NCBI GenBank assembly: GCA_018653605.1
Contig: JABHYY010000004.1
Coordinates: 1-62,837, forward strand
Source: an archaeon
Lineage (GTDB): Archaea; Nanobdellota; Nanobdellia; SCGC-AAA011-G17; GW2011-AR17
DNA length: 62,837 nt
Direction: 5' to 3'
In this document: positions 5,744 through 42,606 of the stretch, in pieces
How the letters are laid out: every line of letters starts with the position of its first letter
How positions within the stretch are numbered: position 1 is the first letter of the stretch
Notes under the pieces: generated by a model
Database searches by the model: none
Seen by the model: the letters and a program-made list of their open reading frames with translations, nothing else
Told to the model about the DNA's origin: nothing
Program-made: the position numbers and the translations under genes

Positions 5744-5956
5744 TTACTTTTTCTTCTTAGTTTTTGGTCTTAAATCACAGCATGAATCACACTGTTCTTT
5801 TAGCAAGAAAACAACACCTATTACCAAGAATAAAGCTGTCCACCAATTGATTCCAAAGAAATTCCATACACCTAAATCAACTGACAAAAATATAGCACCT
5901 AATAATAATAAAAGTACTGCACCTGCCATTGTACATTTTCTACACATAGTCAACAT
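5744..5956 (-). CDS. Small two-helix membrane protein with CxxC
   Basis: 70 residues: MCRKC near the N terminus, two hydrophobic helices (about 10-29 and 36-52, connected by a Trp-rich turn), then C-D-S-C-C and a lysine tail. The helix pair resembles the LiaI/LiaF-type membrane region (DUF5668-like). Start chosen at 5956 because GGGGTGG lies about 8 nt upstream on the minus strand; the internal ATG three codons on is an alternative. Cysteine pairs at both ends might bind metal or form disulfides. Function unknown. Confidence 0.55.
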   Translation of the reverse strand: MLTMCRKCTMAGAVLLLLLGAIFLSVDLGVWNFFGINWWTALFLVIGVVFLLKEQCDSCCDLRPKTKKKK

Positions 5957-6011
5957 AACTTTCCACCCCCTTATCCAATTTTAAGATCTCTTTATTTATA
6001 AAAATTATCAA

Positions 6012-6097
6012 GATTTCCGGAAACTTTCCATAAAACCTGAAATATTTCCGGATTTTATCCAATTGTTATTATAAAAAATGCTAATAATTGACTATAT
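6012..6097 (+). promoter_or_regulatory. Promoter with TTTCCGGA operators, shared with the HEPN gene promoter
   Basis: A perfect palindrome TTTCCGGAAA lies at 6014-6023 and a second TTTCCGGA at 6045-6052. The 28 nt from 6025 to 6052 match 42132-42159 at 27 positions. TATAAAAAAT follows at 6070-6079, exactly 25 nt after the start of TTTCCGGA and 28 nt before the ATG. Both distances are identical at the HEPN gene (42205). Repressor sites just upstream of a leaderless promoter are the simplest reading. Confidence 0.75.
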
Positions 6098-6628
6098 ATG
6101 AAATGGCAATCACTAGAAATCTTTGTAGAACACCTATACAAGAACCTAGGTAAAAAAAGAGTTAAAAGAGATGTAACCATTTCAAGAGGAGGTGTAAGAG
6201 ACCAAATTGATGTCCAATATGGCCTTTTTCTAAAAACATATGTAGAATGTAAAGATCATAAGAAGAATGTACCTTATGCAGAGTTTATGAGGTTTGTTGG
6301 AACATGTAATAGGCTAGGCAAAAGAGGTGTAATGGTTGCAACAACAGACTTTACACCAAGGTGCTACAAAGATGCATCCACATATGGCATCAAATTAATC
6401 AATGGCAAAGAACTAATGAAATTGTACAGAAAGTCTGGCCACAAACCAAAGCATCCTAATGTTAGAAGCACTGTAAGATCCCACCCTAAGAAATACAAAC
6501 CAACATTCAAAAGAAGAGCTATTAATTATTCAAAGTATGGCTTGTATTGTACACTTGCATTAGCACTCTATGAAAACCAAGACAAGTTAATGCCATTAAT
6601 AGAAGAAATAAAAAAATTTATCCCTTAA
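6098..6628 (+). CDS. Mrr-like restriction endonuclease (PD-(D/E)xK fold)
   Basis: 176 residues. The N-terminal ~115 residues fit the Mrr_cat fold: R-G-G-V-R-D-Q-I-D38 then E50-C-K52 give the D...ExK catalytic set, and V-A-T-T-D-F-T then Y-G-I-K-L-I-N-G-K-E-L match the later conserved parts of Mrr-type nucleases. A basic linker and a hydrophobic stretch (about 145-162) follow, possibly a membrane anchor. Mrr enzymes cut modified or foreign DNA. No methylase is nearby. The start is set by the TATA box 28 nt upstream (leaderless). Its promoter is the same module as that of the HEPN gene at 42205. It overlaps the convergent FKBP gene by 4 nt. Confidence 0.7.
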   Translation: MKWQSLEIFVEHLYKNLGKKRVKRDVTISRGGVRDQIDVQYGLFLKTYVECKDHKKNVPYAEFMRFVGTCNRLGKRGVMVATTDFTPRCYKDASTYGIKLINGKELMKLYRKSGHKPKHPNVRSTVRSHPKKYKPTFKRRAINYSKYGLYCTLALALYENQDKLMPLIEEIKKFIP

Positions 6629-41590: not shown

Positions 41591-42127
41591 ATGCTACAAA
41601 ATTGTAATATAATAAAAACAGCATCAATCTTCTTCAAAGAACCAACTAAACAGCATTATCTAATAGAAATATCAAGAAAAACAGGAATTGCACACACTTC
41701 AACAAAACAACACTTAAAACAATTAATTAAATTAGAATTAATAAACAAAACAAAAGAAAAAAGAGGAAAAAGATACTTCCCCTTATACAAAGCAAACTTT
41801 AATGATGAAATTTTTAAGAAATATAAAACTTTTTACAATATTTACTCTTTAGAACAGTCTGGATTAATAGAATATTTAACAAGAAAATTAACTCCTGGGT
41901 GTATAGTTCTGTTTGGAAGTTATCAAAGAGGAGAAGATATAGAGAATAGTGATATAGATCTTTTTGTAGAAACAGGAGAAAAAGAGATTAATCTTAAAAA
42001 ATATGAAAAAACTCTTAATAGAGAGATACAAATTCATTTTAAAAAATCTTTTAAATTATTTCATAAAGGATTAAAAAATAATATAGCAAATGGAATAATT
42101 CTTGAAGGATTTTTAGATGCATTCTGA
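41591..42127 (+). CDS. MNT nucleotidyltransferase with N-terminal winged helix (MntA-like antitoxin)
   Basis: 178 residues. Residues 1-80 form a winged HTH. Residues 100-178 are a minimal nucleotidyltransferase: G109-S110-Y-Q-R-G ... S-D121-I-D123, the G-S-x10-D-x-D active site. MNT proteins act as antitoxins of HEPN RNases by AMP-ylating them; a fused DNA-binding domain would let this one control transcription too. Leaderless start with TTTATAAAC at 41560-41568. The HEPN gene follows after 77 nt and has its own promoter with TTTCCGGA operators. N-terminal residues L-Q-N-C-N are within the short promoter region of korA, divergent. Confidence 0.75.
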   Translation: MLQNCNIIKTASIFFKEPTKQHYLIEISRKTGIAHTSTKQHLKQLIKLELINKTKEKRGKRYFPLYKANFNDEIFKKYKTFYNIYSLEQSGLIEYLTRKLTPGCIVLFGSYQRGEDIENSDIDLFVETGEKEINLKKYEKTLNREIQIHFKKSFKLFHKGLKNNIANGIILEGFLDAF

Positions 42128-42204
42128 AAGATTTCCATAAAACCTGAAAGATTTCCGGAAAATCCAACCTCGTTTTTATAAAAAATAATAGTTTTATACA
42201 TAAT
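42124..42204 (+). promoter_or_regulatory. Promoter/operator of the HEPN gene, same module as at the Mrr-like gene
   Basis: CTGAAAGATTTCC occurs twice, 20 bp apart (42124-42136 and 42144-42156). The second continues into the perfect palindrome TTTCCGGAAA (42152-42161). TATAAAAAAT is at 42177-42186, 28 nt before the ATG at 42205. 42132-42159 matches 6025-6052 at 27 of 28 positions. The first half-site overlaps the end of the MNT gene. A 20-bp spacing of half-sites, about two helix turns, fits cooperative binding on one face. Confidence 0.75.
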
Positions 42205-42606
42205 ATGATACTGACCAATGTAAAACCTGACAAAGAAAAAGCAAAATATCTTTTACAAATAGTAAATCAAACACAAGAAAGGTTGAATCTATTTAACAAA
42301 GAAGCATTTGCTTCAAACACATTAACAGATTATTATGATATTTTACATCAGCTTATGGAAGCAATTACTTGTTTAGATGGGATTAAATTCAAAGGAGAGT
42401 CAGCTCACTACCAATTAATAAAATACATTTGTAAAAAATACAAATTATCACAAAAAAGCTCTTTTTTACAAAACATAAGAATTTATAGAAACAAAGTTTG
42501 CTATGAGGGTTTACAAATAAATAAAAACTACATCAAACTTAATCACAAACAAATAGAAAAGATAATTTCCTTCCTAAAAGAGATAATCAAACAAAAACTC
42601 AAATAA
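42205..42606 (+). CDS. HEPN-domain protein, likely toxin partner of the MNT protein
   Basis: 133 residues, all helical. The HEPN signature R95-N-K-V-C-Y100-E-G sits where RNase members have R-N-x3-4-H; here the expected His is Tyr, as in some archaeal HEPN proteins. It follows the MNT-wHTH gene by 77 nt, the usual MNT/HEPN pairing. Its RNase activity is uncertain because of the missing His. Leaderless start 28 nt downstream of TATAAAAAAT. It overlaps the convergent acdB gene by 8 nt. Confidence 0.7.
   Translation: MILTNVKPDKEKAKYLLQIVNQTQERLNLFNKEAFASNTLTDYYDILHQLMEAITCLDGIKFKGESAHYQLIKYICKKYKLSQKSSFLQNIRIYRNKVCYEGLQINKNYIKLNHKQIEKIISFLKEIIKQKLK

Follow-up and report, generated by a model that had tools for sequence, protein, structure and literature searches.

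Archaeal regulators of the Lrp family bind inverted repeats of 13–17 bp with an AT-rich centre, two or three helical turns apart, and those that act as activators occupy a dimer site at a constrained position just upstream of the B recognition element (BRE), with more sites further upstream (PMC2995911). The promoters of Ptr2 in M. jannaschii and of LysM and Ss-LrpB in Sulfolobus have sites two helical turns apart, the proximal one just upstream of the BRE, and the known targets of archaeal Lrp proteins (FFRP) are amino-acid, energy and redox genes. Here, we describe a promoter module of like layout in a 62,837-nt stretch of archaeal DNA (the window; contig JABHYY010000004.1), where it precedes the genes of an Mrr-type restriction endonuclease and of a HEPN-like protein. 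It belongs, as one class of promoter, to a large archaeal regulon that is undescribed so far as the literature searched shows, and in contrast to the known Lrp targets, its target genes, as judged from their sequences, fall into DNA-uptake-type genes, recombinase and nuclease genes, and toxin-antitoxin, HEPN (beside MNT), restriction-modification and selfish genes.

Two further systems invite comparison. In Haemophilus influenzae, CRP-S/Sxy likewise uses one regulated promoter class for DNA-uptake genes and a toxin-antitoxin operon, toxTA, which is under competence control (PMC6957337); the regulator family and the basal machinery differ, and in the archaeal regulon uptake genes are fewer than toxin, defence and selfish genes. 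The UV/DNA-damage regulon of Sulfolobus (ANTTTC hexamer, Orc1-2/TFB3) resembles the module as an archaeal multi-gene regulon with a TTTC box upstream of the promoter; as described, it is without a tandem 15-bp palindrome, has other targets and is regulated by an Orc1 homologue (PMC9738581). We set this damage box aside as an explanation, the Lrp fit being better. We consider it probable that the module serves as the regulated promoter for a regulon that spans the genome and is conserved in the lineage, and that it is bound by an FL11-like Lrp protein, Lrp-A, which would switch the targets on together as a competence/starvation programme.

Architecture of the module in the window and across the genome

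Direct comparison of the two window loci gave 27 identical bases out of 28 between positions 6025-6052 (TTTCCATAAAACCTGAAATATTTCCGGA) and 42132-42159 (...GAAAGATTTCCGGA). At both, the start of TTTCCGGA lies 25 nt from the TATA box TATAAAAAAT (6045 to 6070; 42152 to 42177) and the TATA box 28 nt from the ATG (6098; 42205), in agreement, to the base, with an earlier sequence-only reading of this DNA. The TTTCCGGAAA palindromes that it placed at both loci are indeed present, but not in the same register: the one at Mrr (6014-6023) precedes the core, and the one at HEPN (42152-42161) lies downstream of it. Its distinction between a shared operator-promoter module and a general promoter consensus holds, the other promoters in the window being unlike those of the module, and within the window the module is confined to these two loci. 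The claim that no other gene has it does not extend to the genome, and the proposed two-locus regulon does not stand, as this genome has at least 11 such transcription units and its relatives have hundreds of sites. When both window sites were held out and a weight matrix was built from nine sites on other contigs, they scored 62.3 and 58.4 bits, compared with at most 16.3 bits in 60 dinucleotide shuffles of the window, and the module is therefore far beyond chance.

The information content of the 11 own sites defines the shared element as a tandem 15-bp palindrome with consensus CTGAAAGATTTTCAG and 20-bp centre spacing. It can be written C-TGAAA-NNN-TTTCA-G (by information content, CTGAAA-GA-TTTTCAG), is present in one to three copies per promoter, and repeats with a period of 20 bp in all aligned sites. 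In the Mrr promoter, the proximal palindrome CTGAAATATTTCCGG (6037..6051, + strand; 58.4 bits in the leave-out search), a predicted Lrp-type dimer site by the own-site consensus, has its centre 20 bp downstream of that of the distal palindrome CCGGAAACTTTCCAT (6017..6031, +); the TATA box (6070..6079, +) follows TTTCCGGA by 17 nt. The HEPN promoter is built alike, with the proximal palindrome CTGAAAGATTTCCGG at 42144..42158 (+), recognized by sequence, own-site consensus and leave-out matrix, the distal palindrome CTGAAAGATTTCCAT at 42124..42138 (+), which shares bases with the MNT stop codon, and the TATA box at 42177..42186 (+).

An 18-base core searched with at most three mismatches returned 17 matches in the 0.96-Mb genome, versus four for the reversed pattern; a looser pattern of half-site plus TATA with three mismatches matched only at background level. 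The 11 or more transcription units share one geometry, namely TTTYCAKAAAACCTGAAA in either orientation, 2 nt, TTTYCRGA, 17 nt and TATA, mostly with the start codon about 28 nt further on, and two more units have weaker copies. The 17-nt interval between TTTYCRGA and TATA is invariant in the 11 own sites (11/11) and found in most sites of relatives, and the distance from TATA to the start codon has its mode at 27–29 nt. The BRE of the own motif promoters is weak: purines make up a fraction of 0.33 of the 6 nt preceding TATA, compared with 0.57 in 23 other promoters of the window.

A fixed TATA spacing and sequences unlike other window promoters would also be expected if the element were the core promoter of an alternative pair of transcription factor B (TFB) and TATA-binding protein (TBP), working in the manner of a sigma factor. 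We rejected this reading, which we regard as very unlikely, because the element is palindromic, occurs in one to three phased copies in either orientation, and keeps its palindrome layout while the TATA/BRE part varies between genomes.

The position of the operator upstream of BRE and TATA favours activation over simple repression. This bears on the possibility that the operator and regulon are as described and that Lrp-A or another factor represses or silences foreign and toxic genes. Such xenogeneic silencing would suit targets that are mostly mobile or toxic, as well as the tandem phased sites, given that both DNA wrapping and repression are within the repertoire of Lrp proteins (PMC2995911); against it, the proximal site upstream of the BRE, fixed 17 nt from TATA, has the layout of an Lrp activator (PMC2995911). 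P. furiosus LrpA represses from sites downstream of TATA, the own motif promoters have a weak BRE, and the OB-fold, TctA and thermonuclease (SNase), TrmI-like and tRNA-Leu targets do not look foreign, and we therefore judge silencing unlikely.

Relatives and the candidate regulator

We searched related genomes with R1, a sequence-only model of the 11 own sites, and R2, a model of 32 family sites. The module was detected in 17 of 18 family genomes (R1/R2 search, E<=1e-3), a count that is partly circular because R2 was trained in part on family sites; counts beyond the family are free of this circularity and amount, at E<=1e-5, to 37 of the order's 103 genomes, and in the class to 36 of 281, of which 12 lie outside the order. 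The sequence-only reading had taken occurrence before dozens of unrelated genes as the mark of a common promoter; the number is indeed in the dozens, but the picture is not that of unrelated genes behind a common promoter. Operators are typical of their genome across unrelated genes (identity 0.74 within a genome versus 0.64 between genomes; 0/2000 permutations), as predicted for one trans-acting factor per genome.

The same result decided us against an attC-like cassette recombination site that travels with mobile genes and resembles a promoter in appearance only. The targets do recall integron cargo, a tyrosine recombinase is itself among them, and at G009:C2, G011:C21 and G044:C17 (G, genome; C, contig; L, locus) sites follow one another in tandem with a single gene between them. 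However, each transcription unit has a single site, whose distance from TATA is fixed, variants of the site follow the genome and not the gene family, and tRNA and Lrp genes have such sites before them as well, which leaves this explanation with a very small probability.

The module fits an Lrp/AsnC operator in its 15-bp inverted repeat, AT-rich centre and 20-bp spacing (11 own sites), and a Ptr2-like activator layout in its dimer-type site just upstream of the BRE at a fixed distance (11/11 own sites). One Lrp group, Lrp-A, is conserved in the family, with the own copy at G000:C20:5509-5982. Compared with solved structures, its profile matched FL11 (PH1519 of P. horikoshii) best, including the FL11-DNA complex 2e1c (E 5e-23), and a fold search with the modelled own Lrp-A (mean pLDDT 73.7) returned 2cyy (PH1519) and 2e1c as its top two structures; profile and fold search thus both give the architecture of an AsnC-type winged helix plus RAM domain. 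The palindrome of the module, TGAAA-N3-TTTCA, resembles the FL11 consensus TGAAA-WWW-TTTCA, a form not found in the literature searched.

The phyletic pattern follows Lrp-A. Among the 103 genomes of the order, 32 have both motif and Lrp-A, 5 the motif only, 16 Lrp-A only and 50 neither (Fisher p 6e-10); by family, the corresponding counts are 9, 1, 0 and 10 (p 6e-5); and outside the order, Lrp-A is present in 12 of 12 motif-positive genomes (10 families) compared with 48 of 211 overall (p 6e-9), all of these being statistics that ignore phylogeny. In at least two other lineages (G038 and G247) the motif lies directly before the Lrp-A gene, and in G131 directly before that of a less closely related Lrp. 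Of the Lrp-A proteins aligned, only those of G009, G011 and G003 have Asp in place of Glu in the STIY(D/E)K stretch of the recognition helix, and the half-sites of G009 and G011 read CCGGAA/TTCCGG; with so few genomes, this pairing is no more than suggestive. A second Lrp of this genome (C31:46627) was rejected as regulator, being patchy in the family and showing no link to the motif.

The sequence-only reading had instead cast the winged-helix MNT protein encoded beside the HEPN gene as repressor of Mrr and HEPN. This protein does have a winged helix, by weak Pfam matches, and the motif lies near three MNT loci. Yet there are three paralogues only 34–38% identical, the MNT genes at C13 (the window contig) and C31 have ordinary, motif-free promoters of their own, there are eleven or more targets, and the motif also occurs in genomes without that MNT, most motif loci having no MNT gene at all; it is therefore a poor candidate, and we regard this explanation as the least probable of those considered. 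Judged by the size and phasing of the sites, by phyletic pattern and by possible autoregulation in some relatives, an Lrp-family protein is the better candidate, and Lrp-A is the likeliest regulator of the module.

Adjacent nucleotidyltransferase and HEPN genes occur at C13, C31, C3, G007 and G011. At three loci the operator lies between the MNT and HEPN genes, in the window (42124-42204, C13), at C31 and in G007 (C85); the loci include L110:3101-3176 and L207. The presumed toxin therefore has a promoter separate from that of its partner.

Target genes and the competence reading

In addition to Mrr and HEPN on C13, the own targets comprise a tyrosine recombinase (C4), a HEPN beside MNT (C31), a 102-aa protein followed by a winged-helix MNT and a HEPN-like protein (C3), a RelE-like protein (C31; no Pfam match itself, 33% identity to a ParE/RelE-like protein of G014), ORF6N (C33), a lamin-tail protein (C31), a 59-aa protein (C28), and a single-transmembrane OB-fold protein and a TctA-like membrane protein encoded by neighbouring genes on C32. 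The weaker copies precede genes for a secreted thermonuclease (C25; PF00565 E 1.8e-20; R2 score 20 bits) and a 105-aa protein (C42; R2 score 17 bits).

Downstream genes in relatives include PIN/VapBC, MazE/PemK, HicAB, RelE/ParE, HEPN beside MNT and YhcG (DUF1016), as well as the IS200 transposase TnpA, TnpB, LAGLIDADG homing endonucleases and restriction-modification genes; a Dcm-like methyltransferase target in G044 was recognized by eye only. Defence and toxin genes are accordingly prominent, as the proposal of a defence regulon had supposed, but the targets extend beyond defence. Unusual non-toxin targets of the kind found in this genome recur far away, namely TctA (G230), OB-fold (G273), a Xer recombinase (G288) and RadC (G225), the last a gene type also found in bacterial competence regulons. 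The lamin-tail protein is a target in G131, G001, G004, G009, G015 and G016, and the TctA promoter of G009 carries the module at a locus retrieved for an unrelated reason.

A single-transmembrane OB-fold protein (MMJJ_13020), a TctA-like protein (MMJJ_13030) and a secreted thermonuclease (MMJJ_16440) are each essential for natural transformation in M. maripaludis, and the TctA-like protein is essential in Methanoculleus thermophilus as well (PMC10133366). All three protein types are represented in the own regulon, matched by type and not by direct alignment to the M. maripaludis proteins, and here too the OB-fold and TctA genes are neighbours, a single transmembrane segment precedes the OB-fold, and the thermonuclease is lipoprotein-like. 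Transformation is an experimental finding in M. maripaludis and, in these uncultured archaea, a prediction from genes. The M. maripaludis genes are not known to share an operator or regulator, and the literature searched describes neither a competence box in archaea nor how they control DNA uptake. Together, the uptake-type genes, recombinase, RadC and nucleases indicate a competence programme and make this reading of the regulon plausible.

In the mechanism that we propose, Lrp-A dimers would bind the tandem palindromes along one face of the helix and contact TBP, activating weak-BRE promoters as described for Ptr2 and LysM. The regulon would be switched on jointly, probably by nutritional state via the Lrp ligand domain, and imported DNA would be taken up, cut or recombined during a competence/starvation programme, while RNA-targeting toxins would slow growth or selfish modules would profit from the promoter.

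Several observations weigh against this interpretation, besides the partial circularity of the family count and the neglect of phylogeny in the co-occurrence tests. The own Lrp-A is the most divergent member, with 36–47% identity to the others of the family, and taken alone gives no AsnC_trans_reg match, falling below the Pfam cut-offs for PF01037. Sixteen Lrp-A genomes are without detectable motif and five motif genomes without Lrp-A, some of them incomplete, and the Lrp-A genes of the window genome and its family have no motif at their own promoter. In this genome the sites at the thermonuclease gene and on C42 score low (17–22 bits), and some sites in relatives precede housekeeping genes (e.g. 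ArgRS in G002) and may be false. Type IV pilus genes are also needed for transformation; none was among the targets read, and no search aimed at them was made.

More tentatively, and with the balance somewhat against it, an FL11-like Lrp could be the master regulator of natural competence in many small, probably host-dependent archaea, with uptake turned on when amino acids or nucleotides run short; mobile, toxin and restriction modules would repeatedly have acquired the competence promoter and hence be expressed when foreign DNA enters. The operator, candidate regulator and target list would provide a first concrete handle on archaeal control of foreign-DNA uptake, explain how dozens of unrelated toxin, defence and selfish modules come under joint control in tiny genomes, for which competence-regulated toxTA of Haemophilus is a bacterial parallel, and give functions to conserved unknown regulon proteins (lamin-tail, 59-aa, 104–108-aa).

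Neighbouring genes and further observations

The Mrr-type endonuclease is encoded at 6098..6628 (+; PF04471, E 1.7e-12), and its transcript is probably leaderless. Divergent from it lies the gene of a 70-aa membrane protein (5744..5956, −; weak LiaF-TM match below the Pfam cut-off). The Mrr operator also matches the module on the reverse strand (5988-6051; 26.5–32.9 bits), before this gene, which may share the operator. The HEPN-like protein (42205..42606, +) has no Pfam match by itself and was assigned by BLASTP to HEPN-like proteins at C31 and in G007 (E 3e-6 and 3e-10); the winged-helix MNT protein upstream (41591..42127, +; NTP_transf_2 E 3.6e-9) is served by its own ordinary BRE/TATA promoter.

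At 11 motif promoters, including those of L181, L188, L180, L196, L259, L271 and L294, the protein gene is preceded by a class-II tRNA gene (mostly tRNA-Leu CAA/UAA) of about 120 nt, with an intron of about 32 nt. ARAGORN found the 11 when introns were allowed and missed them otherwise. The tRNA genes begin 28–42 nt after TATA, at the expected transcript start (genus g5: G015, G016, G004, G009, G013), and an alignment of nine sequences gives a cloverleaf with both sides changed in 18 of 35 pairs. A 249-aa methyltransferase (GCD14/TrmI-like among its Pfam matches) is a target in three genomes (L259:675-1424:+, L310:588-1337:+, L311:571-1320:+), and its gene follows tRNA-Leu at least in G015.

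The gene that follows that of a conserved 104-aa regulon protein in G008 and G001 (L272:113-1501:-, L288:872-2260:+) encodes 462 aa and matches sigma-70 region 2 (E 2.5e-8), in genomes that are archaeal. Finally, a short AGCGAGAGCT-like hairpin is found just before AGGAGG in the long leaders of several regulon genes with Shine-Dalgarno-type starts (L256, L258, L199, L187).
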